Under the pieces are notes generated by a model. It was not told where the DNA came from. It saw only the letters and a program-made list of their open reading frames with translations, and searched no databases. Positions 10,818 to 57,971 of a stretch of 64,000 bases of DNA are shown in pieces. Position 1 is the stretch's first letter. Each line of letters opens with the position of its first letter. This DNA comes from Actinocorallia sp. API 0066 (GTDB taxonomy: Bacteria > Actinomycetota > Actinomycetes > Streptosporangiales > Streptosporangiaceae): contig NZ_JAJLQY010000003.1 in NCBI RefSeq assembly GCF_020991275.1, positions 248,001 to 312,000 of the forward strand. Direction: 5' to 3'. The position numbers were made by a program, and so were the translations under genes.

Positions 10818-12266
10818 TCAGGGGGATGGGGTGAGGGTGGTTTTCAGGCGGGTGAAGGCTTGGATGCCCTCGGGGCCGCCTTCGTAGCCGTAGCCGCTGT
10901 CGAGGCGGCCGGAGAGGGGGGAGGCGGGGTCGGCGCCGGTGGCTAGGTTGAGGCAGACTCGGCCCGCGTTGAGGCGGGGGGCCAGGAGGCGGACGCGGGC
11001 GGGGTCGCCGAAGAGGAAGGCGCCCAGGGCGTAGGGGGTGGTGTTGGCCAGGGCTACGGCCTCGTCCTCGGTGGTGAAGGTCTGGACGGGGGCCAGCGGG
11101 CCGAACGGTTCCTCGGTGAGGATCCGGGCGTCGGGCGGGAGGTCGGTGAGGACCGTCGCCGGGTAGTACCAGCCGGGGCCCGGCGGGATCGTGCCGCCTG
11201 CCCGGAGTGTCGCGCCGCGCGCTACGGCGTCGTCGACCAACGTGTGGACCTCGGTGCGGCGGGAGGCGGTGTGCAGGGGGCCTAGGGTGCCGCCGGGGTC
11301 GCGGTCCAGGGTCGGGAGGGCGGCGAGCAGCAGCGCGACGAACCGGGCGGCGACGGGCTCGGCGACGAGGAAGCGGCTGGGGGCGGCGCAGCTCTGTCCG
11401 GCCGAGCCGAACTTCATCGGGACGAGGGCGGCGACGGCGGCGTCAAGGTCGGCGTCCGCGGTGATGATCGCGGGCGCGTGGCCGCCGAGTTCCAGCACGC
11501 ACGACGCGAGGGTCTCGGCCGCGGCGGCGGCGACGAGCCGTCCGGTGCGCGTCGCACCCGTGAAGCTCACCGTGCGGAACTCCGGCCGCCGCACCAGCGC
11601 GGACGCCCCGGCCGGCGTCGTGAACACGACCTGGAGGACGTCCTCGGGCACACCCGCGGCGTGCGCGGCGGCGACGAACGCCCGGACCATCGACGGCGCC
11701 GTCTCCGGCGCCTTGACCACCACCGGGCAGCCCGCGACAAGCGCGGCACCCGCCTTACGCGCGGTGACGACCGCCGGGAAGTTCGACGGCACGATCGCCA
11801 ACGCCGGACCCGCCGGTTCCGCCGTCACCTCCCGACCCGGCCCGGCACCCGACGCGGAAGCAAGAGCAAGCGCGGAGCCCGCCGATTCCATCGCCGCCTC
11901 CCGGGACGGGCCGAGATCGGCCGCAGGAACGCGGGTCAGCGCGGGGGTGGGGGTGAGGGCGGCTTGGGCGTTTTGGGCTATCCACTCCAGGGTTTCGGAG
12001 GTTCGGGCTAGTTCGGCTTGGGCTTCGGTGGGGGTTTTGCCGGTTTCGCGGGTGAAGGCGGGCACGAGCGAGGGGGCCCGCTCGGCCAGTACGCGGGCCG
12101 TCGCGGCGAGCAGGGCGGCGCGGTGGGCCAGAGGGACGGCGGCCCAGGAGGCGGCGGCCAAGGCGGCGCGCTGGGCCGTCCCCCCGACGGCGTCCTCCGG
12201 GAGCAGCGCGATCTGGTCGATCACGCCGCCGGTGCGGGGGTCGTGTACTGGCGCGAGCGGGGTCAT
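10818..12266 (-). CDS. NAD(P)-dependent aldehyde dehydrogenase
   Basis: 482 residues with ALDH landmarks: IVPSNFPAVVTARKAGAAL, VVVKAPETAP, the general base Glu in LELGGHAP (about 258), the nucleophile Cys in GQSCAAPSR (about 291) and EEPFGPLAPV. The sequence resembles succinate-semialdehyde-type enzymes. Last gene of the locus A operon; the ATG at 12266 is 12 bases after the oxygenase stop, and a GTG at 12278 overlapping that stop would give four more residues. In the pathway it would oxidise an aldehyde, perhaps one made by the oxygenase. An internal duplicated segment (GPSREAAMESAG, then GPGREVTAEPAG) just before the NAD-binding strand is unusual. Confidence 0.85.
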   Translation of the reverse strand: MTPLAPVHDPRTGGVIDQIALLPEDAVGGTAQRAALAAASWAAVPLAHRAALLAATARVLAERAPSLVPAFTRETGKTPTEAQAELARTSETLEWIAQNAQAALTPTPALTRVPAADLGPSREAAMESAGSALALASASGAGPGREVTAEPAGPALAIVPSNFPAVVTARKAGAALVAGCPVVVKAPETAPSMVRAFVAAAHAAGVPEDVLQVVFTTPAGASALVRRPEFRTVSFTGATRTGRLVAAAAAETLASCVLELGGHAPAIITADADLDAAVAALVPMKFGSAGQSCAAPSRFLVAEPVAARFVALLLAALPTLDRDPGGTLGPLHTASRRTEVHTLVDDAVARGATLRAGGTIPPGPGWYYPATVLTDLPPDARILTEEPFGPLAPVQTFTTEDEAVALANTTPYALGAFLFGDPARVRLLAPRLNAGRVCLNLATGADPASPLSGRLDSGYGYEGGPEGIQAFTRLKTTLTPSP

Positions 12267-12277
12267 CACGGTCCTCA

Positions 12278-13135
12278 CTAGCTCCAGGTGACGACGGTGC
12301 GGTCGTCGACGAAGCCGAGCATGGCGGCGAGGGTGGTGCGGGTCTGGGTGGCGGCGGTGTTCGGCTCGACGGCGTGGACGTGCGCGCCGTTGAACACGTA
12401 CACGTCGCCGGTGCGGACCTCGACCCACTGGGACTCGTAGCCGGTCAGCGTCTCCAGCGGGTACGGCGAGCCGGTGAACTCGACGCCCAGCGCGCGCTTG
12501 CTCTCGACGTCGGGCTTGACGTTCCAGTAGACGAGCCGGCCGCCTTCGCTGTCGTTCTCCAGGCAGATGTTGAGCGCGGCGACCTGGTGGTCCACCACGT
12601 GGCGGCGCTCGAAGTCGGCCATCTGCGGGTCGGCGCACTGGGAGTCGTCGTCGTGCGGGTCGAGCGCGAAGACCCCGGCGCCGTGCCACGAGCGCAGCAG
12701 CGCGATCGCGGCGGAGCCCCCGTCGTGCTGGGCGGGACGGACGACCGCGCCCTCCCGGGCCAGGGCGGCGCCGAGTCCGGTGTAGAACTGCTTCATCGGG
12801 TCGCCCGGCACGTCGAGCAGCTCGCGCAGGATCGGGTTGACCTGCTCGGACTCGGCGATGTACTGCGCGGTCGGCTTGTTCCAGGAGTAGGCGCCGAGGT
12901 AGAAGCCGGGCGCCTCGACCCCGCGCACCCGGCGGTGGGTGTTGGCCCAGAACCGGTCGGCGACGGCGTCGCAGACGTCGCGGGGCACCATGCCGCGGAA
13001 CATGACGATCGCGGCGCGGCCGTGCAGGACGTCGAGGACCGCGTCGGGGTCGTAGCCGTCGTACTCGCGGATCTTGAAGTAGTCGGGGGAACCGGACCAT
13101 CCGGTGAGCGGGCGGGCCTGCAGGGCGTTGTTCAT
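12278..13135 (-). CDS. Fe(II)/2-oxoglutarate-dependent oxygenase
   Basis: 285 residues with a jelly-roll oxygenase pattern. The likely iron triad is His161-x-Asp163 (PHDDD) and a distal His at 252 or 254 (NGAHVHAVEP), with Arg266 (QTRTTL) placed to bind 2-oxoglutarate. The Asp is retained, so hydroxylation is more likely than halogenation, where it is usually Gly or Ala. FNGAHVH and CLENDSEGGRLVYW recall free-amino-acid oxygenases of the BesD/lysine-hydroxylase type, but I cannot confirm that family. ATGA overlap with the MFS stop shows translational coupling. Probable role: C-H hydroxylation of the amino-acid-like product of this operon. Confidence 0.75.
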   Translation of the reverse strand: MNNALQARPLTGWSGSPDYFKIREYDGYDPDAVLDVLHGRAAIVMFRGMVPRDVCDAVADRFWANTHRRVRGVEAPGFYLGAYSWNKPTAQYIAESEQVNPILRELLDVPGDPMKQFYTGLGAALAREGAVVRPAQHDGGSAAIALLRSWHGAGVFALDPHDDDSQCADPQMADFERRHVVDHQVAALNICLENDSEGGRLVYWNVKPDVESKRALGVEFTGSPYPLETLTGYESQWVEVRTGDVYVFNGAHVHAVEPNTAATQTRTTLAAMLGFVDDRTVVTWS

Positions 13136-14448
13136 CGGACCTTCTCCATTTCGCGTGCGTTTTCCGGTGCGGTCGGGGCCGTGCCGTCGTCCGGCTCGGC
13201 GGTGTCGGCTGCGGTGTCCGTGGGCGGCTCGTCGGCCTGGACGGGCGAGCGCAGCGCCAGCACCGCCGCGACGGGCCCGATGAGCGCGACGGCCCCGCAC
13301 ACCAGCCAGGTGGTGGTGAGCCCGAGGACGAGGGAGAGCCCGCCGAACACCGCGACCGAGGCGGGCGCGGTGGCGATCCCGGCGAGCGAGAGCGTGGACA
13401 TCGCGGCGCCCATCCGGGAGCGCGGCGCGGCCTGCTGGTAGAGCGTGACGATCGCGGGCCCGTTGAAGCCGGACAGGACGCCGACGGCGAACCCGACCGC
13501 CGACAGCGCCAGCACCGTCGGCATGAGCGCCATCGCGGCGATTCCGATGGCGATGCCGACGCCGCTGGCGACGAGCCGGATCCAGAGCGGGATGCGGTGC
13601 GCGTACATCGCCCCGGCGAGGCCCGTCAGCAGGGCTCCGGCGCTGAACGCGGCGACGGCGATGCCGATCGTCTGCACGCCCCAGCCCCGGTCCTCCACGA
13701 GCAGCGGCAGCGCCACTTCGACGGGCCAGCCGAAGGACATGTCGAGGCAGAAGGCGCAGACGAACAGCCAGCGCAGGCGGGCGTTCCCGGCCAGGAGCCG
13801 GACGCCGTCGCCGGAGCGGCGCAGCAGGCTCTCGCCCTGCTGCGGCGGCGGCTTGGGGAACCCTCGGGTGACGTACACGAGGGTCCCGAAGGAGACGGCG
13901 CACGTCAGGCTGACGAGGGCGAGCGCGTGCCACACGTGCCCGGCGCCGATCAGGATGGCGCCGAACGGGGTGCCGACGATAGGCGAGAGCCGCAGGACCG
14001 TCGAGTAGAGCGAGTTGGCGCGGGCGAGGTCGTCGCCCTCGGCGAGTTCGGGCAGCAGCGAGCCGAACGACGGGCTTCCGAGCCCGAGCAGCGCGCCTTC
14101 GACGGCGGCGATCAGCACGAGCGGCCAGAAGGTGTCCGTCAACGCGAGGGTGACGGCGCCGCCCGCCAGCAGGACAGTCCGGGCCGAAGTGGTGCGTAGC
14201 AGGACGAACCGAGGCCCGTGCAGGTCCGCGAACGCGCCGCCGAAGATGAGGGCGAGCGCACGCGGCACCGCGGCGGCCAGGCTGAGCAGGGTGATGGCGC
14301 CCGCGCCGCCGTGCTGGACGGCCGTCCAGGCGAGCGCGACGAGGAGGGCGTAGTCGCCGGTCAGAGCGAGGCCCTGGCCTAGGACGAGGGCGAGGAGTCT
14401 GCGCCGGGGGGACGCGGGCGCGGGGTCGAGGGCGGCTTGGGTCGCCAT
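13132..14448 (-). CDS. MFS transporter, 12-TM enterobactin-exporter (EntS)-like
   Basis: 438 residues with about 12 hydrophobic helices. It has MFS features (FGGAFADLHGPRFVLLRTTSA near motif A; a central cytoplasmic loop around TRGFPKPPPQQG) and an acidic, Thr- and Asp-rich tail. The pattern fits MFS_3/EntS-like exporters. It lies inside the coupled operon: the start is 6 bases after the preceding stop and its own stop overlaps the oxygenase ATG. The likely role is export of the operon's product, which would also protect the producer. Confidence 0.8.
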   Translation of the reverse strand: MATQAALDPAPASPRRRLLALVLGQGLALTGDYALLVALAWTAVQHGGAGAITLLSLAAAVPRALALIFGGAFADLHGPRFVLLRTTSARTVLLAGGAVTLALTDTFWPLVLIAAVEGALLGLGSPSFGSLLPELAEGDDLARANSLYSTVLRLSPIVGTPFGAILIGAGHVWHALALVSLTCAVSFGTLVYVTRGFPKPPPQQGESLLRRSGDGVRLLAGNARLRWLFVCAFCLDMSFGWPVEVALPLLVEDRGWGVQTIGIAVAAFSAGALLTGLAGAMYAHRIPLWIRLVASGVGIAIGIAAMALMPTVLALSAVGFAVGVLSGFNGPAIVTLYQQAAPRSRMGAAMSTLSLAGIATAPASVAVFGGLSLVLGLTTTWLVCGAVALIGPVAAVLALRSPVQADEPPTDTAADTAEPDDGTAPTAPENAREMEKVR

Positions 14449-14453
14449 GGGGG

Positions 14454-14828
14454 TCACCTGTTCCGGTCGGGGAGCTGACGGGGGCCGTGGTCGCCGCGCT
14501 GCGGCAGGAGCATCCAGGCGCTGCCCCGGCCGCCGCGCAGCGCGCTGGCGACGGCATGGGCGACCGCCTGGCTTTCGGTGGCCTCGGCGGCGCGGCAGCC
14601 ACGGGGCAGGACGCCGTCGGAGGTGATCTCCGCGTGCCCGCCCAGGTAGCCGCGGCCGAGCGTGGACAGCGTCCTGGCCATGGCCCGGATCGCCATCGCC
14701 CGGTGCGGGGAGGTCGTGAGGAGCGGCACGTCGGACGGGGTGAAGCGGGCGTGCACGGAGCGGGCGGCCGGGGTCCGGACGGTCGGGTCGACCGTGCACC
14801 AGCGGGCCGCTGACGGTGAACGTTTCAC
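14454..14828 (-). CDS. Unrecognised 124-residue protein in the locus A operon
   Basis: The GTG at 14828 overlaps the stop of the FMN-enzyme gene (GTGA) and the stop is 5 bases before the MFS start, so the gene fits the operon exactly. The sequence begins VKRSPSAARWCTVDP and then reads VHARFTPSDVPLLTTSPHRA, AIRAMARTLSTLGRGYLGGH, AEITSDGVLPRG and AVAHAVASALRGGRGSAWML. It has one short amphipathic helix and Gly-rich loops, no signal peptide and no membrane helix. I do not recognise the family. The rival frames across this stretch are Arg/Pro-rich and look like shadows. Confidence 0.6.
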   Translation of the reverse strand: MKRSPSAARWCTVDPTVRTPAARSVHARFTPSDVPLLTTSPHRAMAIRAMARTLSTLGRGYLGGHAEITSDGVLPRGCRAAEATESQAVAHAVASALRGGRGSAWMLLPQRGDHGPRQLPDRNR

Positions 14829-16069
14829 TGGCGGTCTCCGATCGGGACGCGGGGCGCGGGCAGGGGCTCGTCGGGCGTCCACAGGTCCTCGGGGGCGAGC
14901 GCGGCGACGTCGTACTTGCCCAGCGCGCTGATGAGCAGCCGTGCTTCGGCGGCCAGGCAGGCGGCGAGCCTTTCGAGGCCGTGGTCGGGGTCCTCGTCCA
15001 CGGCGAGCAGGGCGGCGCGGCCGAGCCCGGCGGCGCGGGCGCCGAGCGCCAGGGCGCGGACGACGCGGGCGCCCTCCCACATGCGTCCGGACGCGAGCAG
15101 GCAGCCGCCGGGGGTGCCGATCCGGCGTAGGCACTCGGCGAGAGGCAGGCCGACGTGGGTGAGGAACGCGTGCGGCGCCCAACCGGTGCCGCCCTCGGCG
15201 CCGTCCACGGTGACGGCGTCGGCGCCCGCCTCCCACGCGGTGCGGGCGGCGGCGGCCACGTCCCGGCCGGGCGGCAGCTTCACCCACACGCGGGCGCGCG
15301 GGTAGTTGTTGCGCATGAACTGGACCTGCCGCCGGACGATCTCCTCGGTGAAGGTGCCGGGGGTGGCGGTGCGCAGCTTGGCATCACCGCCCAGGACGTC
15401 GGAGACGGTGAAGGTCGCGGCGGCGCGGGCGCTCTCTTCGGGGCCGACGACGGTCATGCCGCCGAGTCCGGGCTTGGCGCCCTGGCCGATCTTCAGTTCG
15501 AAGCCGAGACGGCCCGCCCAGAGGAGGTCCTGGGAGGCGGGGTCGCTGTAGACGAGGTTCCAGACTTCGGCGTCGGCGTCCTCGGTGCTCTGCTGCACCA
15601 CGACGCCGCCTTGCGCGGGGTCGCCTTCCTCTGTGTAAGCACGGATGCGGGCTATGAGCGGGGCGTCTGCCTTGCGGTAGCCGTGGACGGGCACCATGTT
15701 CTCGCCGATCACCATGGGGATGCCCAGGCGGGCGGCCTGACGGGCGGTGGCGACGCCCAGGTCGCCGCTTCCGGCGCGGGTGGAGCCGAACGCCGACAGG
15801 TAGAGCGGGAGGGACGAACTGAGGCCGCCGACGTCGGTGGTGAGATCCACGTCGTCGGGCATGGGCTCGCGGCCCAGGTCGATCAGCTTCTCCAGGCGCA
15901 GGGGCATGAAGACAGGGGGAACGATGCGGGTGCGATCGAGGGCGTCGGGGTGGCTGCCGAAGAGGGTGGTGCCGTAGTCGCGGGCCTCGGGGAAGGCGGC
16001 GGCGGTGCCCATGCGGGCTCGGGCGCGGACCTCCGCCTCCGGGAAGCCCGGCGCGGACAGGGCCGTCAC
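14825..16069 (-). CDS. FMN-dependent glutamate-synthase-like protein without the Fe-S motif
   Basis: 414 residues matching the FMN/synthase domain of glutamate synthase (GltB central domain and stand-alone relatives). Landmarks are IGQGAKPGLGG (about 192-202) and DGAEGGTGWAPHAFLTHVGL (about 286-305), plus ALGARAAGLGRAALLAV where the FMN phosphate is held. The CxxCHxxxCP cysteines that bind the 3Fe-4S cluster in GltB are absent: the segment reads DEDPDHGLERLAACLAAEAR. No glutaminase or GXGXG domain is encoded nearby. It may reduce or form an imine or amine with FMN. Starts with a GTG overlapping the stop of the AsnRS-like gene, so it is coupled to it. Confidence 0.75.
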   Translation of the reverse strand: MTALSAPGFPEAEVRARARMGTAAAFPEARDYGTTLFGSHPDALDRTRIVPPVFMPLRLEKLIDLGREPMPDDVDLTTDVGGLSSSLPLYLSAFGSTRAGSGDLGVATARQAARLGIPMVIGENMVPVHGYRKADAPLIARIRAYTEEGDPAQGGVVVQQSTEDADAEVWNLVYSDPASQDLLWAGRLGFELKIGQGAKPGLGGMTVVGPEESARAAATFTVSDVLGGDAKLRTATPGTFTEEIVRRQVQFMRNNYPRARVWVKLPPGRDVAAAARTAWEAGADAVTVDGAEGGTGWAPHAFLTHVGLPLAECLRRIGTPGGCLLASGRMWEGARVVRALALGARAAGLGRAALLAVDEDPDHGLERLAACLAAEARLLISALGKYDVAALAPEDLWTPDEPLPAPRVPIGDRQ

Positions 16070-17070
16070 GGGGCCACCACCCCGGGCAGCTTCGGATAGG
16101 CGCTGACCTGCCACACGGCGTCCAGGCCGGTGAGGAAGCGGACCAGCCGCTCGACGCCCATGCCGAAGCCCGCGCCGAACGGGATGCCGTCCTTGACGTT
16201 GCGCAGGTACCAGTCGTACTTCGCGGGGTTCTCGGCGCTCTCCCGCATCCGGGCGACCATGGTGCGGTAGTCGCTCTCGCGCTCGCTGCCGCTGACGAGC
16301 TCGCCGTAGCCGCCGTGCGCGATCAGGTCGAAGTTGCGCAGGGTGCCGGGGGCGTGCTCGTTCTCGCGGTCGTAGAAGCCGCGTGAGCCCTTCGGGTAGT
16401 CCGTGATGAAGAACGGGCGGGCGGTCTGCTCCGAGAGGGTCCGCTCCCCCGTCCAGTCGATCTCGGCGTCGGGGCTCTGCGGGTGGCCCTGGGCGCGGAG
16501 CTTGCTGACGGCTTCTTCGTGTTTGACGACGTCGAAGGGGCCTTCGAGGAGGGCTTTGAAGAACTCCTGGTCGCGGCCGAGGTCTTGCAGCACGTCGGGG
16601 ACACGGGCGCAGACCGCCTGGACGACGTGCTGGAGCAGGCCCGTCGCGGTGGCCATGGCGTCCTCGCGGGTGGCCCCGGCGATCTCGACGTCGATCTGGT
16701 GGAACTCGACGAGGTGGCGTCCGGTCGTCGCGGTCTCCGGCGGCTCGATCCGAACATTCGGGGCAATAAAGAACAACCGCTCGAAGCCCCGCAGCGACAC
16801 CTGCTTGTACAGGTACGCGCTCGTCATCAGCTTGTAGGTGTGCCCGTAGTAGTCCACGTCAAGGGGCTTCGCCCCCCGCCCGCCCGGGTCCGTGACCGGC
16901 CCCATCAACGGCGGCAGCAACTCCACAAACCCCTCGCCGCGCAGAAACTCCCGAGCCGCGTACAGCGCCTCCTGCTGCACCAACATCGCCGCCCCAAGCT
17001 CCGGCGTCCGCAGATGCTCCCCAAGCGGCAACGGCCCCTCCACCGCCACCCCGACCCTGTCCCGATCCAT
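16066..17070 (-). CDS. AsnRS-like class II synthetase lacking the anticodon-binding domain
   Basis: 334 residues consisting only of a class II catalytic core of the Asp/AsnRS subgroup. The motif 2 region has FFIAPNVRIEPPE and RHLVEFHQIDVEIAG (about 110-130). RPFFITDYPKGSRGFY and GYGELVSGSERESDYRTM match conserved AsnRS blocks, and motif 3 is GAGFGMGVERLVRFLTGL (about 296-313). The roughly 100-residue OB-fold that reads the anticodon is missing. Known proteins of this shape include archaeal asparagine synthetase (an AsnRS paralog) and other ligases that activate a carboxylate as adenylate. It opens the locus A operon (SD GGGAGG before the ATG at 17070). Probable role: adenylation and amidation or ligation of an Asp- or Asn-like acid. 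Confidence 0.8.
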   Translation of the reverse strand: MDRDRVGVAVEGPLPLGEHLRTPELGAAMLVQQEALYAAREFLRGEGFVELLPPLMGPVTDPGGRGAKPLDVDYYGHTYKLMTSAYLYKQVSLRGFERLFFIAPNVRIEPPETATTGRHLVEFHQIDVEIAGATREDAMATATGLLQHVVQAVCARVPDVLQDLGRDQEFFKALLEGPFDVVKHEEAVSKLRAQGHPQSPDAEIDWTGERTLSEQTARPFFITDYPKGSRGFYDRENEHAPGTLRNFDLIAHGGYGELVSGSERESDYRTMVARMRESAENPAKYDWYLRNVKDGIPFGAGFGMGVERLVRFLTGLDAVWQVSAYPKLPGVVAP

Positions 17071-17236: not shown

Positions 17237-19180
17237 TCAGGTGCGGGTGAGGGCTGTGAGGGCTTGGGTGAGTGGTTCGGAGAGTGCTGTCAGGCTGGGG
17301 AGGACCGTTGGTGGTGGGGAGTCCAGGGCGGCGTGGTGGAGGAGATCGGACAGTGCTGTGCTGGTGTCGGGGGGAAGTGTCGCTGGGCAGGACGGGGTGG
17401 CGAGGGCGGCGCGGGCGGCGTAGGCGTCGTTGGCTGTCAGGATGTCGTCGGCAAGACGTCGCCAGAGTGGGGCGAGCAGTTCCGGTGGGCTGCCGAGTGC
17501 GTCCGCGACGTGGGTCAGGCGGACGTGCCAGAACGCGGACGACGGGTCGGTGTGTTCGCCGTTCGATGGGAGTTCGCGGATAAGTGCATCGACGTAGCTC
17601 GGGAGGTGGTCGTCCCTGGTTTCGGCATGGGTGTCGATGAGGGCGTGCAGGGCGAGACCGCAGGGGCTGCCGCGGTCGGCGGGGTGCGCGGAGTCGATGA
17701 AAGCGCGGGCCGAGTCGGTCCGGGCGGCTCGTAGCTCGGCGACGACGCGGGTCTGGCGGGCTTCGTGGAGGCGATCGGGGTCGGTGTCGTGGAGGGCGGC
17801 GTGTGCGGCGGCTCGGGACCAGTCTCCGGTGGCGGCGAGGGCCCTTGTACCGTCCTGGGCCAGGACTTCCCGGTACCAGGCCCGTGCCTCGGACGTGTCG
17901 GTGGTGAAGCCGTCCAGTGTGACGCGGGTGTTGTGGAGATCGATGCCGACCCCGTTGTTGAGTGTCCGGGCGATGCCGGTGAGCGCCTCGTACATGAGGT
18001 GGGGACGGCGGGCACGTCCGTGGAGGCGGGCGAGATTGACCAGGGGCTGGAGTGCCGCGATGGCCGCTCGGCCCGGCAGGGGCCAGAGTCGGCGCAGGAC
18101 GTGGTGTTGCCGCCAGCACAGGTCGGCTGCCAGGCCGGGAAGGCCGCTGTCGGCGGCGATGAGGGCGGCCAGGTTCCAGGCGCCGCACGCGCGGTCGATC
18201 CGTTCCTCGGGGTCGGTGGCGTCCATGGCGGCGTCCGCGTGGTCGGCGACGCCGCGGAGCCGGTCGGCCAAGGGCGGGCAGATGAGCCGCGGTCGCGGGA
18301 CAAGAGGGAAGAACCGGTAGACGCCGTCCGGCTGTGGGTGCTCGGAACGACGCCTCGCGGGTCTGTTCGGAGCGGTCGGAGCGGGGCCGAGCACGGCGCT
18401 GCGGGCAGCGTGGGCGAGGAGGCTCTGCTGGCGGAAGGCCAGGCCGAGCCGGTTCCAGTGGAAGAGGACGTGGTAGGCCAGGACCGACCTCAGGCCGCGT
18501 TCCAAGATCCCTTCGGCTGCCAGATCCGCCAGGGCACGGCCGCAGGTGAAGAACGCACGCGCCCACGGTGCGGCGTCGGCGAGCGGCCCCGAAGGCCCGA
18601 ACGCGGCGCCCTCCGGACCGGCGTCGGTGCGCAGCAACGTGCCGACCGTCCCGGCGAGCCGGTCAAGTGCGCCTGCGCCGACGTCTTCAGGGAGCGGTCG
18701 TTCCGCCGCCGCCTTCGCCCAGACGTCACCCATCTCGTACGGTTCGAGCCGGGCACCCGCCAGCAGGGCGCCGCACAGCAGCATCGACAGTTCACGGGCA
18801 CCGACCGGCAGATCCGCGCCCCTGCGGAGGACGGCGTGGCTGTCGGCCGCGAACAGGGTGTGCGCGGCGGTCATCGCGGCGGGACCACCGAACGCGGCCG
18901 TCTCAGGTTCGTAGCTCCCCGACCACCACCGGTCGAGAACGCCCGCATCGACAAATTTGTCGAGCGCACCGGTCAGGGCGTCGGCCGCGGAGCTGACGCG
19001 CAGCCGCCAGCCGGGGTGCTTGCGGATGAACCACCACGTACCGGGCCCGGCGGTGCCGTCCAGGACGGCGGCCATACGGCTGAAGGACTCCGCGGGGGCT
19101 TGGTCGGCGAAGCGGAGGAAGAACTGGCGCCAGTGTGCTTCGTGCGCGGCCGTAAGGCGAGCAGCAGGCATGTGTCCCAT
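17237..19180 (-). CDS. Thiopeptide-type (LanB C-terminal-like) protein of the lanthipeptide locus
   Basis: 647 residues. The first 290 or so match the thiopeptide-type bacteriocin biosynthesis domain, related to the glutamate-elimination half of LanB: HWRQFFLRFADQ, WWFIRKHPGWRLRVSS and the helical VLAYHVLFHWNRLGLAFRQQ close to its end. The last 350 residues form a separate, mostly helical region with repeated Arg-, Leu- and Ala-rich segments that I do not recognise. The operon also has a full-length LanB with its own elimination domain, so this is a second, accessory protein. The start may be ATG 19180 or 19171; both lie inside the extended 3' end of lanC. Confidence 0.75.
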   Translation of the reverse strand: MGHMPAARLTAAHEAHWRQFFLRFADQAPAESFSRMAAVLDGTAGPGTWWFIRKHPGWRLRVSSAADALTGALDKFVDAGVLDRWWSGSYEPETAAFGGPAAMTAAHTLFAADSHAVLRRGADLPVGARELSMLLCGALLAGARLEPYEMGDVWAKAAAERPLPEDVGAGALDRLAGTVGTLLRTDAGPEGAAFGPSGPLADAAPWARAFFTCGRALADLAAEGILERGLRSVLAYHVLFHWNRLGLAFRQQSLLAHAARSAVLGPAPTAPNRPARRRSEHPQPDGVYRFFPLVPRPRLICPPLADRLRGVADHADAAMDATDPEERIDRACGAWNLAALIAADSGLPGLAADLCWRQHHVLRRLWPLPGRAAIAALQPLVNLARLHGRARRPHLMYEALTGIARTLNNGVGIDLHNTRVTLDGFTTDTSEARAWYREVLAQDGTRALAATGDWSRAAAHAALHDTDPDRLHEARQTRVVAELRAARTDSARAFIDSAHPADRGSPCGLALHALIDTHAETRDDHLPSYVDALIRELPSNGEHTDPSSAFWHVRLTHVADALGSPPELLAPLWRRLADDILTANDAYAARAALATPSCPATLPPDTSTALSDLLHHAALDSPPPTVLPSLTALSEPLTQALTALTRT

Positions 19181-20367
19181 TCCGAGGAGGGTGGGTCGAA
19201 AGGCCGCTGAGCGGAGCTCAAAGCGAGGAAGGCTCCGGCGTCGCCATCGAGAAAGCCGGGCCCGTGCCCGCGCGGATCGGAGGCTCTACGTGCGAGCCGT
19301 CCGGCCAGCTGGGGAAGGAAGGACGTCAACGTGGGAGCGACGGCGTCCTCAGCGGCGCGTCGAACGGTCTGGTAGAGGCCGGCGGCACCGTGGCACAGGC
19401 CGGGATCCGTGACGAGTTCCTGCTGGGCGAAGTCCGCGAGGCAGGCTGCGAGCGCGTCCTCGTAGCGGTGCTGGACGGCCGGGTCCCCGATCGCCAGCGC
19501 GGCGAGTTGCCCGGCACGGGCGATGCCGGGAGTGCCGTAACACCAGCTCGGACGTCCAGGGCCGGTCTGCGACGGCCGCCCGAGCACGAGATCCCGACGG
19601 GTGATCCACTGCGGCCACCACAAGCTGTGGGGTCCGTCCTGTCGCCAGGAGTCGAGAAAGTCGAGGATCACGGCGATGGCCTCGGTGTGGCCGTCGACGG
19701 TGTGTCCGGCTCGGGCGGCGATGGCGAGCAGTGCGAGGGGCCCGGTCACGCCGTGCGCCATGCCGAGGTTGGCATGGCCTCCCGGATAGGAGGACGAGTT
19801 CCGGCGGTGCGGGTCGTGCCCCACCCACCAGCCCGGCAGCCAGACGTCCTGCTCACGGCGCGGACGCGTCAGGGCGACGAGTGACGTCAGGACCCGTTCG
19901 GTCGCGCCGCCGCCCGGATCGAGGCGCAGCAGCAGAGCACCGAGTCCGGCGAGTCCGAAGAACACGTCGTACTCCCGGAAGGTCGCCGGGATCCCGGCGG
20001 CGACCCGGGCCTGGAGCGCATCGGCACGTCTGTGCGCGATCGCGGCGAGCGGTCCGGCCGTGTCGGCGAGCCCACCGCCGTAGCGGGCGGTGGCGCGCAG
20101 GAGGAAGGCGACGGCGGGCAGTCCCTGGAACAGACCGGCGTCGTCGCCCGCGCTGACCGGACCACCCGCGCACGCGCGCCGGATCCATGCGTGCGCCTGC
20201 CGCCACGTCCCCGTGCCGAGCCGGGCTCGCTCGACGTGTACGAGAGCGATCCCGGTGGTTCCCTGGGCGAGCGAATGCGCCCACCACGGTTCATCGTCCG
20301 GAGCGGGTCCGGGCTGCGGAAGACGAGCCAGGCACGCCGCCGCGGCAGCTTCGACGGAGGCGCTCAC
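18973..20367 (-). CDS. lanC: LanC-like lanthionine synthetase
   Basis: 464 residues. LanC cyclases add precursor Cys thiols to dehydroalanine/dehydrobutyrine using zinc. The ligand motifs are present: WCYGTPGIARAG (Cys near 276) and LCHGAAGLY (Cys-His near 322-323), as are helical-barrel repeats such as NLGMAHGVTGPLALLAI. The ATG overlaps the LanB stop by 4 bases. The homologous part ends near SSEWDTCLLLA (about 19170), but the frame stays open for another 60 or so Arg- and Pro-rich residues, running 208 bases into the next gene. Either this is a real long overlap, or a stop has been lost by mutation or sequence error. Confidence 0.85.
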   Translation of the reverse strand: MSASVEAAAAACLARLPQPGPAPDDEPWWAHSLAQGTTGIALVHVERARLGTGTWRQAHAWIRRACAGGPVSAGDDAGLFQGLPAVAFLLRATARYGGGLADTAGPLAAIAHRRADALQARVAAGIPATFREYDVFFGLAGLGALLLRLDPGGGATERVLTSLVALTRPRREQDVWLPGWWVGHDPHRRNSSSYPGGHANLGMAHGVTGPLALLAIAARAGHTVDGHTEAIAVILDFLDSWRQDGPHSLWWPQWITRRDLVLGRPSQTGPGRPSWCYGTPGIARAGQLAALAIGDPAVQHRYEDALAACLADFAQQELVTDPGLCHGAAGLYQTVRRAAEDAVAPTLTSFLPQLAGRLARRASDPRGHGPGFLDGDAGAFLALSSAQRPFDPPSSEWDTCLLLALRPRTKHTGASSSSASPTKPPRSPSAVWPPSWTAPPGPVRGGSSASTPAGGCASAPRPTP

Positions 20368-23300
20368 GATCGGGACAGGCCGGGGTCGTGAAGCTCGCGG
20401 AGCGCCCGTGCCCGTGCGAGCCGCATCGTGGTCCGCTCGTGGTCGATGTCGCAGGCACGACGGTGGTGGCCACGCAGCAGCAGTGTCAGCATCGTCATCG
20501 GATCATCCCGTTCCGTCTCCAGCACGGCTCGATAAGCGCGCAGAGCGGCGGCCCGGTCCCGCCATGCCGCGGCGACCTCCTCCGGCACGACGAGACGCAG
20601 CGCGTGATCACGCAGGACGGGATCTACCCGCCCCCGGCGACCGGGCGGTCCATCCACCAGATGACGCCGTCCAGCGTCGGGAGCCCCGGCGAACGCGCAC
20701 GCGAGATCCACCATGCTCACCGCGGCGACAGCGGCGGCCGGAATCCGCGCGCGAGCGGTGAAGGCGATCTGCGCGAGCACCGCGACGGTGTCCGCCGCGA
20801 ACGCCGCGTAGGCGGCGTCAAGCGAACGCTCGGACCATCCGTACTGTCCCGGTTGTGCGCGGAAGGTCTCCAGCGTGACGTCGGACGCGAGGTTCCGGCG
20901 CACGAGGTCATCGACCCAGGACGTCAGCGCTTCGGCGGCCTCTCCGCGCGCCGACGGTGCGGACACAGGGAAGTGCAGGAGCAGTGCCGGCGGAGTGTCC
21001 GGCCTGCGCAGGTCCCGGTGGCGGACGAACCACCACCGTGGCGGAGATTCAGGAAACGCGGCGAGCAATCGAGGCACGTGAGCCGTCAGAAGCTCGTCCC
21101 ATCGGGCCGGATGGCTCAGCAACCGGGCTTTGAGCACCGTCCTCCGGTCCCGGGGTTCTGCAACGTGCCGAACCGAGGAGAACCCGCCGCTCACGCGCTT
21201 CACGGGTGCGGAAGGTCGGCTGAGGCGTAGCGGGAGAAGGAGCTCGTGCGCACGGCCGATCCACCCGTTGTCCACCAGGTCCTCGTGAAGCTCCACTCGG
21301 GCGGCGGCACCCAGACGCGACCGCAGAAGGTGCCGGTGCAGCGGCCGGTCGACATCAAGGGGAAGTCGGCGGTCGTACTCGACGAGTACCACCTCGCGCG
21401 GGACGTTCCAGCCATGCCTCCAGCGTGCGAACGCCTCGTCCCATGTGCGCTGCGCGGCCGCTCGGCCGGGGAGCTCATCCGCCCGCAGGAGCCAGCGCGC
21501 CGGTGCCAGGATCGTACGGCGGAAGCGAACGCGCGGCAGATAGGGCAGCGTTTGGGCCGCGCCGAAGTGGAACCCGGCGTACAGGGCGCCGCGCGCCGTG
21601 GTGATCTCGGAGAGGAAGCGGGCGAGCGGAGGGATGTGCGTGGTGGCTTCCAGCGCGTTCGCCACCCTGATCTCCAAGCGGCGTCCGGACGGCTGATGGA
21701 GCAGGCGGAACCGATCTGAAGCCGCCACCACCGCGATGTCCGCGACCCCGAGCACCCGCGCCTCGCCCGCGTTCCCGGCGGAGACTCCCTCGCCCAACGG
21801 AATGAGGTGGTCGAGCAGCGGGACAGCGGCGGCCAACACGGCGTTGCCCCGACGGCGCGGCGGGCACGAGAGCTGCGCCGCGATGGCCCCAGGGTCGTCT
21901 GCCGTGAGGCTCGCGGCGAGTTCCGCACGCGCCTCGGCGGGCAGGAAGTGCGCGTGCCTGCCCGTCATGCTGCTGCCCGATCGAGGAGTGCCGGTCACCA
22001 GAAGAGCAAAACGGCCACGATCGATCTCCTCTCGCGAAGCGGCCTGGACCTGGACGCCGATCTCCGCCCGGTCGGGCCAGATCGGCTCCGCCCCCTCGTC
22101 GTCGGCGAGTTCACACACGAGGTCGTCGGTCAGCACCAGTTCACCGCCCTTGACGCCGATCTCCTGCACGAGCGCCAGGAGGCGTTCGTCGCGCGCGGTC
22201 AACACGCGCGGGGCGAGCGCCGCCGCGGCTCCCGCGTACCCTGCCGGGAAACCGAGGCCGCCGTCTCCGACGAGTTCCAGCACGGGTACGGGCCGATCCG
22301 TCCCGTACCGGTCGAGAAAGCGGGCGTGGTAGTCCCGCCAGGCGGCCGTCCCGAACGGGAACGGGGAGAGCCGACACAGGATGGCCGCCGCCCGCGCCGC
22401 CTCCCGTCCGACCTGTTCCGGCACCAGGACTGAGGCGTCCAGCACTGTGTCAGCCGTCAGACGCACCTGCTCCGAGCCCGCTCTCACGAATGCGTCCAGA
22501 GCGGCCGGGGCGTTCAGCGGAAGTTCGGGGACGAGGCCGTGACGCAGCGCGAGCAGTTCGTCGACCGTCCCGGCCAGTTCGGGCACGTCGTGCGCCGCCA
22601 CGTCGCGAAGGACACCGCACACGTGGCCGAGCGCGTCAGGACCGCTCATCGGCGGGTTCAGGTCGCTGATCAGGAGATTGTGGGCGACGAGTTCCCGGAG
22701 GATGCCGTTGATCCGATCGCTCGACGCCTCGGGGAACGCCTCGGCGACGATCTTCGCCAGTTCACCGGCGCGCACCGGCGCGCGGGCCTTCGCCAGGGCG
22801 AGCCGCACCGGACGCGTCGCGCGCACCGACACCTCGACCGGTGCGAGCCCCGCGTCGACGGGGACGGGACCCGGGCCGACGAACTTGTCTCCGCGCACGG
22901 TCAGCGCGCCGTTCGCCGTGACGGTAAGACGTTCCAGCAGCGCGGGACATGCGTGGAGGCGCGCGACGACCTCACCGAGCCAGTGCGGGTCGGGCCGCCG
23001 GACCACCTGATGCCGATCGCCCCACCGCACAGCCGTCCGGCCGCGCCGGACGGTGCCGACCCCGGCGAAGAGGCCGAACGGAGTGGCCCGGTGCCGCCAC
23101 CGCAGCAGGTAGGACGCGGTCGAGATGACCAGTCGGCGCAGGCGCCGTTGATCGGTCTCTCCGGAGTCGAGGTGATCCAGGGCGTCGAGCAGATCCGGAC
23201 TGGCCATCGCCAGCGCCGCCCGCACCTCCGGGCGACGGCAGAGCCCGGTGAGCCAGGCCGCGCCACGGCGGAGATCTGCGGGGTCCGTCAAGTCCAGTTC

Positions 23301-23384
23301 GTCGGGCAGTTCGAGGTCGCCTGGCGCTGTGCTCGCGCGGAGCACTCCGCTGCCGGACCACCGGAACGTCAACTCAGGGGGCAT
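20364..23384 (-). CDS. lanB: LanB lanthipeptide dehydratase, full length
   Basis: 1006 residues, the usual size for class I dehydratases. The large N-terminal glutamylation domain (about 1-740) includes TASYLLRWRHRATPFGLFAG, a signature of Lant_dehydr_N, and LPYLPRVRFRRTILAPARW. The C-terminal elimination domain (about 765-990) begins WWFVRHRDLRRPDTPPALLL. It uses glutamyl-tRNA to activate Ser and Thr of the precursor core, then eliminates glutamate to give Dha and Dhb. It lies 70 bases after the precursor gene, with a hairpin between, and overlaps lanC by ATGA. No transmembrane segment is seen; the protein is cytosolic. Confidence 0.9.
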   Translation of the reverse strand: MPPELTFRWSGSGVLRASTAPGDLELPDELDLTDPADLRRGAAWLTGLCRRPEVRAALAMASPDLLDALDHLDSGETDQRRLRRLVISTASYLLRWRHRATPFGLFAGVGTVRRGRTAVRWGDRHQVVRRPDPHWLGEVVARLHACPALLERLTVTANGALTVRGDKFVGPGPVPVDAGLAPVEVSVRATRPVRLALAKARAPVRAGELAKIVAEAFPEASSDRINGILRELVAHNLLISDLNPPMSGPDALGHVCGVLRDVAAHDVPELAGTVDELLALRHGLVPELPLNAPAALDAFVRAGSEQVRLTADTVLDASVLVPEQVGREAARAAAILCRLSPFPFGTAAWRDYHARFLDRYGTDRPVPVLELVGDGGLGFPAGYAGAAAALAPRVLTARDERLLALVQEIGVKGGELVLTDDLVCELADDEGAEPIWPDRAEIGVQVQAASREEIDRGRFALLVTGTPRSGSSMTGRHAHFLPAEARAELAASLTADDPGAIAAQLSCPPRRRGNAVLAAAVPLLDHLIPLGEGVSAGNAGEARVLGVADIAVVAASDRFRLLHQPSGRRLEIRVANALEATTHIPPLARFLSEITTARGALYAGFHFGAAQTLPYLPRVRFRRTILAPARWLLRADELPGRAAAQRTWDEAFARWRHGWNVPREVVLVEYDRRLPLDVDRPLHRHLLRSRLGAAARVELHEDLVDNGWIGRAHELLLPLRLSRPSAPVKRVSGGFSSVRHVAEPRDRRTVLKARLLSHPARWDELLTAHVPRLLAAFPESPPRWWFVRHRDLRRPDTPPALLLHFPVSAPSARGEAAEALTSWVDDLVRRNLASDVTLETFRAQPGQYGWSERSLDAAYAAFAADTVAVLAQIAFTARARIPAAAVAAVSMVDLACAFAGAPDAGRRHLVDGPPGRRGRVDPVLRDHALRLVVPEEVAAAWRDRAAALRAYRAVLETERDDPMTMLTLLLRGHHRRACDIDHERTTMRLARARALRELHDPGLSRS

Positions 23385-23412
23385 GCTGTGGCCTCCGCGA
23401 TCAGCACCCTGA

Positions 23413-23445
23413 GGGGCGGACGGCTCGGCTGCTCCCGCCCGCCCC
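23413..23445 (-). terminator. Hairpin between precursor gene and lanB (attenuator candidate)
   Basis: On the transcribed strand, GGGGCGGGCGG (23445-23435) can pair with CCGTCCGCCCC (23423-23413), an 11-bp stem with one G-U pair and an 11-base loop. It sits just after the precursor stop and before lanB. A partial terminator or RNA-stabilising hairpin here would let the precursor be made in excess over the enzymes. Confidence 0.5.
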
Positions 23446-23454
23446 CGGAGACGG

Positions 23455-23649
23455 TCAGGACAGGGCGTTCATCGCGGAGTTGCAGGCGCTGGAGCTACCG
23501 GAGCAGGTGTTGCCGCACCCGTCGTCGGTGGGGCACGGCGTCCTGCCGACCGGATCGAGCGTCACCAGCACCGTCACGTCGAGGTCGAACTCGTCGTCGA
23601 GGTCGGCCGGTTCGGCGAACGCGAGGCCGCCGGGGGAACGGTCGTACAT
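23455..23649 (-). CDS. lanA: FxLD-family class I lanthipeptide precursor
   Basis: 64 residues starting MYDRSPGG, with AAGGAGAG well placed upstream. The leader is acidic and carries the family motif FDLD at 21-24 followed by VTVLVTLDP. The Cys-rich C-terminus holds Cys39, 45, 49 and 56 and many Ser and Thr (Thr37, 41 and 48, and a Ser50-Gly-Ser-Ser-Ser stretch), so up to four lanthionine rings are possible. Asp42-Asp43-Gly44 is a likely target for the adjacent isoaspartyl-type methyltransferase. The leader cleavage site is not obvious; a core beginning near Gly35-Arg36-Thr37 is plausible. Lies between the methyltransferase and LanB genes. Confidence 0.9.
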   Translation of the reverse strand: MYDRSPGGLAFAEPADLDDEFDLDVTVLVTLDPVGRTPCPTDDGCGNTCSGSSSACNSAMNALS

Positions 23650-23662
23650 GCGGTTCTCTCCT

Positions 23663-24934
23663 TCAGAGTGAGTCGGACTGTTCGGCACGGGTAGGCGTCG
23701 GCCAGGAGATCGAGACGCGCACGTGACGCTTGTTGATGACGCGGCCAGGAGGGATCAGGTCGTCGGGCGTGCCCGCGAGGTAGATCCGGTACCGGGGGCC
23801 CGGCCCGTGACGCTGTTCCCGGCCCCAGGTCCGCAGCTGTTCCGCGACGCGCTCGGCCAGATCGGCGGCCTCGGGGCCGTAGGCGTGAACGCCGTACTCC
23901 GCCGACCTGTCGACCGTGGTGGCGGTGCGGTGGACCAGGTAGGCGAGGTTCGGCCCGTCCACGACGGCCATCGCCATCGCCCGGTTGCCCGGGAACTCGA
24001 CCACGCCGCTGTCCCTCTCGCGGTCGAGGGTCAGCCAGCAGAAGCCCGGCTGGGTGGTGGCCAACCACATCTGCACCGTGTCCAGGGGCTCGGTGTCGCC
24101 GATCGGCTGGCCGCTCCACACCTCGGTCCACGGCCCCTCGAACACCGTGTCCAGCGCCCCTGGCGACAGCGCGGAGTCGTGATCGTCGTCGTCGAACCGC
24201 AGGCTCACCTGGCCGCCGCGCAGAACGACGACCTTCGCCCGGTGGGCTCCTTCCCCCTGCATGGGCACGAACCCGAACAGCTTCGCCCCCACACTCACCA
24301 GGCCGCCGGTGATCGAGTCCTTGGCGAACGCGATCGTGCGGGACAAGCCGCGCATGCGCAGCGGAATCAGGAGCAGGCCGTCATCGGCGAGCTGGTCGAT
24401 CCACGCAGGAGGGATGTCCCAGCTTCCGACCGTGACCAGGATCCGGTCGTACGGCGCCCCGTCCGGCACACCCGCCTCGGCGTCGCCCAGGACGACCCTG
24501 ACGCGCGACCCGTATCCGTTCTCGTCGAGGAGACGGCTGGCCCGGTCGGTCACCCACTCGTCGATGTCGACGGTCGTCACCCGACCGTCGGAACCGACGA
24601 GCTCAGCGATCAACGCGGCGTTGTAGCCGCCCGAGCCGATCTCCAGCACGTTCGCGCCCGGCTCGATCCGCGTTTCGCTGAGCATGTAGGACTGGACGTG
24701 CATGTCCGACACCGAGCTGAGCGCGTTGCCGTGTTCGTCCCGCTTGGTCACCACCGCCGAGAACGGATCCCACGCCGACTCCGGGTCCACCTCGGGGATG
24801 AACAGGTGCCGCGACACCTGCCTGAACGCCTCCTCGACGTCCGCGGAGACGATGGTGCCCGCGGAGCGCAGTTCCGCGATGGCGGACTCGCGGAGCCCCT
24901 CGATGCCGGTTCGGTCGGTGGTCGTGTCGGTCAC
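23663..24934 (-). CDS. FxLD-system methyltransferase (protein-L-isoaspartate type)
   Basis: 423 residues. The N-terminal two-thirds is a PCMT-type SAM methyltransferase: SAM motif I VLEIGSGGYNAALIAEL (about 95-111), VTTVDIDEWV, ILVTVGSWDIPPAWIDQL and LLLIPLRMRG. The C-terminal part (about 290-423) is specific to the FxLD group. Related lanthipeptide enzymes methylate Asp side chains to give aspartimide or isoaspartate, so the precursor's Asp43-Gly44 is a natural target. First gene of the operon; stop and precursor ATG are 13 bases apart. The GTG at 24934, after GAGGA, is chosen as start. Upstream in-frame codons lack a ribosome-binding site. Confidence 0.85.
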   Translation of the reverse strand: MTDTTTDRTGIEGLRESAIAELRSAGTIVSADVEEAFRQVSRHLFIPEVDPESAWDPFSAVVTKRDEHGNALSSVSDMHVQSYMLSETRIEPGANVLEIGSGGYNAALIAELVGSDGRVTTVDIDEWVTDRASRLLDENGYGSRVRVVLGDAEAGVPDGAPYDRILVTVGSWDIPPAWIDQLADDGLLLIPLRMRGLSRTIAFAKDSITGGLVSVGAKLFGFVPMQGEGAHRAKVVVLRGGQVSLRFDDDDHDSALSPGALDTVFEGPWTEVWSGQPIGDTEPLDTVQMWLATTQPGFCWLTLDRERDSGVVEFPGNRAMAMAVVDGPNLAYLVHRTATTVDRSAEYGVHAYGPEAADLAERVAEQLRTWGREQRHGPGPRYRIYLAGTPDDLIPPGRVINKRHVRVSISWPTPTRAEQSDSL

Positions 24935-25083
24935 TGAGACTGTCCTCGTTCGTCGATGATCCGTGGTCGAGCCAGGAACCATGTAACCGGGTCGGCGAGA
25001 TACCGTCACGGGGGCGCGGAGCATCTTCGCCATGCGTCAAGAAAGGTCGATGAGCTGCGGTTTTGGGCCCGCGCAGCGAAGAT

Positions 25084-27814: not shown

Positions 27815-28021
27815 TCAGGTGTATTGGGCGACCAGGCTTTGGGGGCGGATGTCGGTCCAGTGGGTTTCGATGTGGGTGAGGCATTCCTGGCGGGTGCCTC
27901 GGTCTCGGGCGACGGTCCAGCCGCCGGGGACGGGGGCGAAGTCGGGCCAGAGTGAGTGCTGGCCCTCGTGGTTGACGAGGACGAGGAAGGTTCCGTCGTC
28001 GTTGTCGAACGGGTTGGTCAT
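27815..28021 (-). CDS. MbtH-like protein
   Basis: 68 residues with the family landmarks: [17 protein letters not shown], the NxExQxSLWP block ([16 protein letters not shown]), GGWTV, and the C-terminal [11 protein letters not shown]. MbtH-like proteins bind NRPS adenylation domains and are often needed for their solubility or activity. The ATG overlaps the stop of NRPS-1 by 4 bases (ATGA), so it is translated together with the megasynthase. Last gene of the operon, followed by a strong hairpin. Confidence 0.95.
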
Positions 28022-47559: not shown

Positions 47560-48342
47560 TCAGGCGGGCCGGGCCGCCAGGATCGACGTGACGAGGGACA
47601 GGAACTCCGGCAGGCGGTCCTGGAAGTAGAAGTGGCCGCCGGGCAGGACCGTCAGGGCCGCCTCGCGGTCGGTGACCTCAGCCCAGTCGGCGAGCGCGTC
47701 GACCGGCACGATCGGGTCCTGGGCGCCGCCGAGCGCGGTGACGGGGCAGCCGAGCGCGGGCAGCGCGCCGGTGAAGCGGTAGGCGTCGTCGATGGCGAAG
47801 TCGGCGCGGATCGACGGGAGCACGATCTCGCGCAGCTCCGGCTCGTCGAGGACGGCGTCGTCGGTGCCGCCGCGTTCCTTGAGCGCCGCGACGAGGTCGT
47901 CGTCGGTGAGCCGCTCCGGCTCGACCCGGCTCGGGTTCGGCAGGAACGGCGCACGGCACGCGGACGCGACGAACGCGCGCGGCGGACGTCCCTGCGCGGT
48001 CAGCGCCCGCGCCACCTCGAACGCCACGAGCGACCCCATGCTGTGCCCGAGGACAACAAGGTCGTCGGTGTCCTCGGGCAGGCACGCGGCGATGGGCCCC
48101 GCGAGGTCGTCGATACCGACCGGCAGGTCCTCGGCGAACCGAGCGCCCCGGCCCGGATACTGCCCGATGAGCAGCCTCACGTCAGCGGGCAGCAGCCCCC
48201 GCCAGTCGGCGTAGGCATGCGCGTTCCCACCCGCATGCGGAAGCACGAGCAGCGACGTACGATGGCGCGCCGCACCGGGCAACCGCCACACCACGTCATC
48301 AGCGGCGACCGTCGCCGCCAAGTACTGGACCGGACTCATCAT
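47560..48342 (-). CDS. Type II thioesterase (editing)
   Basis: 260 residues of the GrsT/RifR type. The nucleophile motif is GHSMGS (Ser near 99), the N-terminal LLVLPHAGGNAHAYADWRGL is typical, a catalytic Asp lies in GGAQDPIVP and the His is in LPGGHFYFQDR. Such enzymes release wrong or stalled acyl groups from PCPs, which matters in an assembly line whose carriers are loaded in trans. The start is the ATGATG after GGAG; a slightly longer in-frame ATG exists at 48351. Confidence 0.92.
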   Translation of the reverse strand: MMSPVQYLAATVAADDVVWRLPGAARHRTSLLVLPHAGGNAHAYADWRGLLPADVRLLIGQYPGRGARFAEDLPVGIDDLAGPIAACLPEDTDDLVVLGHSMGSLVAFEVARALTAQGRPPRAFVASACRAPFLPNPSRVEPERLTDDDLVAALKERGGTDDAVLDEPELREIVLPSIRADFAIDDAYRFTGALPALGCPVTALGGAQDPIVPVDALADWAEVTDREAALTVLPGGHFYFQDRLPEFLSLVTSILAARPA

Positions 48343-48420
48343 GCACTCCATTCGAGGTCAGGCCGGGCGGCCGGGTCAGGGTCAGGCGGGGTGGGGTCGG
48401 AGGTCGGGGGGTGGGCGGGG

Positions 48421-55101: not shown

Positions 55102-55167
55102 GGGGGGTCTCCTTACTCTGGATCTCTTACGGGGTAGTGCGGACGGAACAGGGCGAAGCGGGGTGGG

Positions 55168-57588: not shown

Positions 57589-57682
57589 TCGACGCTCACC
57601 CTTCTGCTGGGGGTCCGGGTCCTGCTGCCGCCCATACTCCGGGGCCGGTTATTCGCGGGGCATCACCGCGACTATCACGGCG

Positions 57683-57737: not shown

Positions 57738-57796
57738 TGAATGCCCCTCTTCCTACCTTTGTGGCATCAGGTGAGGACAGCAGAACAGAGGACACG

Positions 57797-57874: not shown

Positions 57875-57903
57875 CCGACCCCCACCGCTCCCAGCGCCGA
57901 GCA

Positions 57904-57925: not shown

Positions 57926-57971
57926 CTCTCCGCGTGTCAGGAGGTCGGCGTGTTCCGGGCGCGACCTGCGG

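Follow-up and report, generated by a model that had tools for sequence, protein, structure and literature searches.

A 64,000-nucleotide stretch of the genome of Actinocorallia sp. API 0066 (contig NZ_JAJLQY010000003.1, positions 248,001–312,000; hereafter the window) was analysed with focus on a six-gene operon on its minus strand (17070–10818). The operon encodes an asparaginyl-tRNA synthetase (AsnRS)-like ligase (AsnL), a flavin mononucleotide (FMN) protein (GltF), a small protein, an exporter of the major facilitator superfamily (MFS), an Fe(II)/2-oxoglutarate oxygenase (OXY) and an aldehyde dehydrogenase (ALDH), in this order. In our view, the operon likely serves precursor supply and export for a multimodular non-ribosomal peptide synthetase (NRPS) cluster and is thus a detached piece of a larger unit, in which OXY and ALDH would replace the B12-dependent glutamate mutase (MutS-MutE) of related clusters by an O2-dependent route from valine to 3-methylaspartate. 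With less assurance, although slightly on the favourable side, we propose that such an aerobic pathway, which would yield the same (2S,3S) isomer, replaced the mutase in one NRPS family and probably did so in two or more lineages, and that GltF persists there to act with the AsnRS-like amidase, not merely to supply glutamate as proposed for SlgE3 of the streptolydigin cluster.

The genes are tightly spaced. AsnL and GltF as well as GltF and the small protein overlap by four bases (GTGA), a 5-base gap separates the small protein from the MFS gene, the MFS gene and OXY share a 4-base ATGA overlap, and the junction of OXY and ALDH reads TAGTG. A previous sequence-only reading had listed the same six genes, positions and junctions, all of which were reproduced. 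Its family calls hold by Pfam and NCBIfam matches, and the small protein is again left without a family (no Pfam or NCBIfam model matched at E 0.01).

AsnL matches PF00152 and reaches 402.2 bits with the model NF005052 ('asparagine synthetase A'), which is above the cut-off of 368. The protein aligns with residues 125–431 of the AsnRS structure 1x54; the N-terminal anticodon-binding part is missing. Sequence relatives of similar length are the archaeal AsnRS-related asparagine synthetases (PDB 1nnh and 3p8t), from which AsnL differs by its location in an NRPS cluster and its predicted substrate, 3-methylaspartate. Based on these matches, AsnL would adenylate and amidate a side-chain carboxylate. 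A search of 297 genomes of the order (E 1e-60) found AsnL in 13, own genome counted; the genus is represented by two more genomes, which yielded neither AsnL at this threshold nor OXY.

For comparison, 91 distinct AsnL loci were available (94 minus six duplicates between collections, plus L165, L167 and the window). Those from named genomes were limited to the best 80 of 144 confirmed stretches, which biases the set towards close relatives. Most loci span at most 20 kb, and absence of a gene refers to the stretch in question. GltF was found in 90 of the 91 loci, and AsnL-GltF constitutes a conserved pair in actinobacterial NRPS clusters, located beside NRPS genes in most relatives. Gene clustering showed that the pair mostly adjoins MutS and MutE, usually directly downstream of them. 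MutE of locus L044 matches PF06368 (methylaspartate mutase E) with 282.9 bits, while MutS is a B12-binding domain protein. Since MutE occurs in 83 of the 91 loci, AsnL-GltF has the appearance of a building-block cassette that receives 3-methylaspartate.

These neighbourhoods bear on the sequence-only reading, which took the six genes to make and export a small modified amino acid or amide on their own. A tight operon with its own exporter would suit that interpretation, but AsnL-GltF adjoins NRPS genes in most relatives and homologous NRPS genes are located about 11 kb from the operon in the window. A self-contained operon was therefore rejected, and we regard this alternative as very improbable. 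What stands is a fit of the genes to the processing of an Asp- or Asn-like amino acid through amidation, hydroxylation and aldehyde oxidation; the operon itself is real, but its coordinates cover only part of a functional unit that includes the NRPS genes at 27815–56190. A neighbourhood search for unrelated passengers, as suggested by the same reading, returned AsnL and GltF as conserved partners and an MFS relative in 41 of the 91 loci (window counted). The oxygenase and ALDH were missing from all 94 loci fetched with AsnL as query, yet the pair is present in the L032 cluster beyond the fetched stretch and in two further clusters.

Eight loci are devoid of MutE, namely the window, L032, L165, L167, L027, L028, L029 and L080. 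The first four belong to clusters with OXY-ALDH: the window (genome G000), L032 (Micromonospora gifhornensis, G650), L165 (G908) and L167 (G905). On the contig of G650, OXY and ALDH share 69% and 57% identity, respectively, with the proteins of the window; they follow each other as in the window and lie at the margin of the AsnL cluster. No PF06368 match was obtained in the window genome (98.96% complete) or in G650, and none over the cut-off in G908 and G905. The search that led to G650 used AsnL and was blind to OXY. For G908 and G905, which were picked up by their OXY, the test lies in the lack of MutE and not in the presence of OXY. In the latter two, OXY-ALDH is located beside genes for a ketosynthase III-type enzyme (KSIII), an acyl carrier protein (ACP) and NRPS1, with AsnL 26–32 kb away. 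The in-house gene caller misses genes, such as GltF in G908, which was recovered by tblastn. The genome of L080, a locus whose contig is cut just upstream of AsnL, is without OXY.

An OXY query that does match G000 and G650 found no OXY (E 1e-15) in the 61 other AsnL genomes searched. For the 63 genomes found through AsnL, OXY is associated with the lack of MutE (Fisher p 0.005). In this table, MutE status was set by the AsnL locus: G064, with two AsnL loci of which one has MutE, was counted as with MutE, while L080, G145 and G187 were placed among those lacking it, in the case of G187 despite PF06368 on a different contig. In a tree of AsnL and GltF (32 of 86 usable rows), the window clusters with Streptomyces galbus and Streptomyces longwoodensis (SH-aLRT 83). 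The three other OXY clusters group together (98), beside two mutase-type Micromonospora clusters (100). Forcing all four OXY clusters into one clade costs 34.9 log units (approximately unbiased test, p 0.026), which suggests two separate OXY-ALDH associations.

A close comparison is offered by Micromonospora sp. C31 (L193, L030, L197). Its cluster and the window share KSIII, ACP, NRPS1 to NRPS3, a thioesterase, a TauD-type oxygenase, an adenylation-thiolation (A-T) didomain protein, MbtH, AsnL, GltF, the small protein and the MFS exporter. In the stretches compared, C31 alone has MutS-MutE and the OXY-type clusters have OXY-ALDH instead; neither OXY-ALDH nor lanthipeptide genes were found in the stretches of C31 that were read. 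Eight further genes of C31 (KSIII15 to PPT in our gene set) are common to the OXY-type clusters other than the window, which does not have them. At gene level, the swap of OXY-ALDH for glutamate mutase is well supported by these comparisons. As a separate observation, L030 (12282–19800), L032, L165 and L167 contain ATP-grasp-like, pyridoxal phosphate-decarboxylase-like, ACP, KSIII-like and acyl-CoA-dehydrogenase genes that are absent from the window; this subset is reminiscent of the butirosin side-chain genes.

The nearest named model of OXY is NF041274 (HilA, L-isoleucine 3(1)-dioxygenase; 2e-35), and PF22814 is matched just above its cut-off (28.9 versus 27 bits). The residues H161, D163 and H254, which form the HxD...H iron triad, are invariant in 12 of 12 relatives. 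A structure model of OXY (predicted local distance difference test score, pLDDT, 81, with low values of 53–65 around residues 151–180) is most similar in fold to WelO5 (Z 24.5; the structure 5iqu is the WelO5 G166D variant) and to the amino-acid dioxygenase SadA (Z 16.8). The halogenase WelO5 has a glycine (Gly 166) at the position of the aspartate, whereas OXY has D163. OXY should therefore hydroxylate, and a function as halogenase was rejected. ALDH has succinate-semialdehyde dehydrogenase as top NCBIfam match, below the cut-off of that model, and directly follows OXY in G650, G908, G905 and G870 as well.

Purified HilA of Pantoea ananatis is reported to act on free isoleucine to yield 4'-hydroxyisoleucine and to form 4-hydroxyvaline with low activity (PMC3684760). 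When the valine methyl group that corresponds to the site of HilA on isoleucine is oxidised to a carboxylate, reasoning by hand with the Cahn–Ingold–Prelog rules gives (2S,3S)-3-methylaspartate. This is also the isomer made by the glutamate mutase route. Valine is thus, by analogy with HilA, our best substrate candidate for OXY.

In the proposed pathway, OXY would hydroxylate the C3-methyl group of free L-valine to 4-hydroxyvaline and probably oxidise it once more to 3-methylaspartate semialdehyde. ALDH would convert the semialdehyde to 3-methylaspartate, which the missing mutase would otherwise provide and which, being Asp-like, could serve AsnL as substrate. AsnL is predicted to adenylate the side-chain carboxylate of 3-methylaspartate and to amidate it to 3-methylasparagine, with GltF contributing an FMN step that is tied to AsnL rather than to the mutase. 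The NRPS would take up the product of the cassette, and the MFS protein would export the peptide. If true, a rare amino acid can be made by two chemically unrelated routes, the second of which became visible by an exchange inside a largely unchanged cluster and would be a B12-free and oxygen-dependent conversion of valine to 3-methylaspartate and 3-methylasparagine. This would also explain some of the mutase-less clusters and make the role of the glutamate-synthase-like protein directly testable.

Several observations weigh against this reading, the first of which concern the chemistry. OXY obtains 122.5 bits with the HilA model, far below the equivalog cut-off of 500, and is not HilA by that test; moreover, it is paired with ALDH, whereas HilA is paired with HilB. 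Since no gene of the cluster was recognised as an alcohol dehydrogenase, the second oxidation has to be carried out by OXY itself or by a borrowed enzyme of this kind. The reported preference of HilA for isoleucine and its low activity on valine (PMC3684760) also speak for an alternative in which OXY-ALDH converts isoleucine to 3-ethylaspartate and the final product is ethyl- and not methyl-branched. We consider this unlikely, given that the adenylation (A) codes of the OXY-type clusters are those of mutase-type clusters, which are expected to use methylaspartate in one or another of their modules.

The second group of opposing observations concerns distribution. G905 has a sub-cut-off PF06368 match (21.9 bits), the OXY clusters share ancestry that is ignored by the Fisher p-value, and the window forms a long branch in the AsnL+GltF tree, which calls for caution on the separate-branch result. 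C31 also differs in its Streptomyces antibiotic regulatory protein (SARP, 43%) and is without the SnoaL-like gene in the stretches read. Distant OXY relatives are found in genomes with PF06368 over the cut-off (G742, 44%; G951, 40%; G1019, 37%); in G742, AsnL and MutE share a contig, with the OXY relative on a different one. The mutual exclusion of OXY and MutE holds only for the close OXY set of at least 57% identity (G000, G650, G908, G905 and G870). Five of the nine OXY genomes in the family of G650 (350 genomes) are without AsnL. A fixed partnership of OXY with AsnL was ruled out, as six of the nine have no linked AsnL. Six genomes of the class harbour OXY relatives and no GltF, GltF being the gene that the search there covered. 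G870 carries OXY-ALDH in another NRPS cluster (L149, 8247–10516) and its genome is without an AsnL or PF06368 match; the pair may be a mobile or stand-alone supply module, or have another role there.

The occurrence of OXY relatives in other contexts, including genomes with MutE, would be in line with a further alternative, according to which the mutase was simply lost, AsnL amidates plain aspartate, and OXY-ALDH acts on a different residue or on the peptide. However, most other genes are common to mutase-type and OXY-type clusters, and both mutase-less clusters of this NRPS type that were found through AsnL and have an intact neighbourhood contain OXY-ALDH. In addition, the two clusters found through OXY are without MutE, and the OXY clusters are located on separate branches of the tree. 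Simple loss is hence rated slightly below the isoleucine route and also as unlikely.

GltF matches PF01645 (6e-19) and PF01070 (7e-15), both of which are FMN domains. Its structure model (pLDDT 88.5) is an FMN TIM barrel with a QGAKPG loop and a GGTG motif (alignment to 7mfm). Type 2 isopentenyl diphosphate isomerase (IDI-2), lactate monooxygenase, the alpha subunit of glutamate synthase (GOGAT; 1ea0, Z 26.7) and hydroxyacid oxidase are tied as best folds (Z 26.7–27.0). The 414 residues include no glutaminase domain, just three cysteines and no C-x5-C-x4-C, which we take to be the 3Fe-4S cysteine pattern of GOGAT. A full, normal glutamate synthase was rejected on this domain content. GltF is present in all eight loci without MutE, so its role appears to go with AsnL and not with glutamate supply. 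A function as glutamate supplier for the mutase is likewise disfavoured by the one locus of 91 without a GltF match, L097 of Nocardiopsis sp. ATB16-24, which has MutE and AsnL. The matches to GltF in L106 and L057 are short or fragmented. Candidate reactions of GltF are a redox-neutral isomerisation, an oxidation of the amidated product and the provision of ammonia.

A known system with similar gene types is that of streptolydigin in Streptomyces lydicus. There, 3-methylaspartate is reported to come from slgE1-slgE2-slgE3, with SlgE3 described as a ferredoxin-dependent glutamate synthase and SlgZ as AsnRS-like (PMC5357945). The likeness to the window lies in AsnRS-like and glutamate-synthase enzymes that occur with 3-methylaspartate supply, and was drawn by gene type. 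We take SlgE1/E2 to be the glutamate mutase and SlgZ to make the amide. Streptolydigin relies on SlgE1/E2, whereas the window has OXY-ALDH and no mutase. The claim of the sequence-only reading that no named pathway has this gene combination thus needs to be narrowed: SlgZ and SlgE3 beside SlgE1/E2 are a precedent for the AsnRS-like and glutamate-synthase-like pair, while OXY-ALDH in place of the mutase is the unusual part. The operon is accordingly a known kind of building-block cassette, and its novelty is the precursor supply by OXY-ALDH. A literature search in open-licence PubMed Central papers found no matching cluster and no valine route to 3-methylaspartate.

The other features of the window are listed together with the operon in Table 1. 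Judged by gene content and codes, the NRPS cluster is of the same type as those of Streptomyces and Micromonospora relatives. The finding also marks a widespread NRPS family. A codes were extracted from hidden Markov model alignments at the Stachelhaus positions, and some rows are incomplete or wrong (NRPS2; one of the four AMP-binding stretches of NRPS3 is unread). The NRPS3 codes DAEDIGTVV and DAYYWGSFA are letter-identical in Streptomyces NRPSs beside MutS-MutE-AsnL-GltF (L046, L051, L065), and the code DSYYWGSFA of G650, G908 and G905 is that of the mutase-type loci L030 and L033. Substrate assignment was attempted for DAYYWGSFA and DGLQFGAGF and none was reached. Own genome counted, a TauD homologue was found in 19 of 21 genomes searched. 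The gene order in Streptomyces lavendulae is SARP, helix-turn-helix regulator, NRPS1, thioesterase, TauD, A-T and NRPS2.

An FxLD-type class I lanthipeptide system (17237–25033) is located upstream of the operon and comprises a LanB C-terminal-type protein, LanC, LanB, an FxLD methyltransferase (TIGR04364, 483.9 bits, cut-off 320) and a candidate precursor. It lies between NRPS/MbtH and AsnL, which is the place of MutS-MutE in relatives, and separates the operon from the NRPS genes. None of its genes is matched in the remaining 90 AsnL loci within the fetched stretches.

Table 1 Features of the operon and of the neighbouring clusters in the window
Feature	Position	Strand	Remarks
AsnL	17070–16066	−	Start ATG; 334 aa; AsnRS-like asparagine-synthetase-A-type ligase, catalytic core only
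GltF	16069–14825	−	Start GTG; 414 aa; FMN TIM-barrel protein; glutamate synthase/type 2 isopentenyl diphosphate isomerase/hydroxyacid oxidase superfamily
Small protein	14828–14454	−	Start GTG; 124 aa; without family match
MFS exporter	14448–13132	−	Start ATG; PF07690 (MFS_1), 1e-38
OXY	13135–12278	−	Start ATG; WelO5/HilA-type Fe(II)/2-oxoglutarate oxygenase; proposed valine C4 hydroxylase/oxidase
ALDH (Aldedh)	12278 (GTG) or 12266 (ATG) to 10818	−	PF00171, 1e-107; proposed 3-methylaspartate-semialdehyde dehydrogenase
Candidate lanthipeptide precursor	23455–23649		64 aa; FDLDV motif
MbtH-like protein	27815–28021	−	In relatives, MbtH-like genes cluster with NRPS and AsnL
NRPS3	28018–39153	−	3711 aa; C-terminal thioesterase; A codes DAEDIGTVV, DAYYWGSFA, DAYYWGSFA
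NRPS2	39294–44306	−	1670 aa; A code not readable
Stand-alone A-T didomain	44604–46355	−	Code DAQDLGVVD, presumably Gln-like
TauD-type oxygenase	46362–47513	−	Homologue in 19 of 21 genomes searched, own genome counted
Stand-alone thioesterase	47560–48351	−	
NRPS1	48421–54786	−	2121 aa; A code DGLQFGAGF twice
ACP and KSIII-type synthase	54868–56190	−	
Helix-turn-helix and SARP-type regulators of the NRPS cluster	56242–60992	−	

The small protein has tblastn matches in 5 of the 91 AsnL loci, window counted. Its GRGYLGGHAEI stretch was seen again near the MFS gene of relatives, and a second cluster of small proteins, encoded ahead of the MFS gene in other loci, resembles it by eye (RGYLGG motif).

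Different arrangements were noted in some of the remaining loci. L027–L029 (flanks L129–L134) have no mutase and contain genes that resemble, by eye, isopropylmalate synthase, LeuC, LeuD and a branched-chain aminotransferase. Their A codes differ (DAFHLGAMV, DAAHLGCMV), and they possibly represent a third (alkylmalate) route to a 3-alkylaspartate. L025 and L026 are AsnL-GltF-MutSE clusters, and genes of L025 resemble SbnA/SbnB (diaminopropionate) by eye. The code DLTKVGEVA, noted in this group, presumably resembles the Asn code, which hints at an Asn-like product of the cassette. In L120 (9441–10274), a relative of OXY (46%) is located among genes that resemble, by eye, phosphoenolpyruvate mutase, phosphonopyruvate decarboxylase, carbamoyltransferases and an NRPS.

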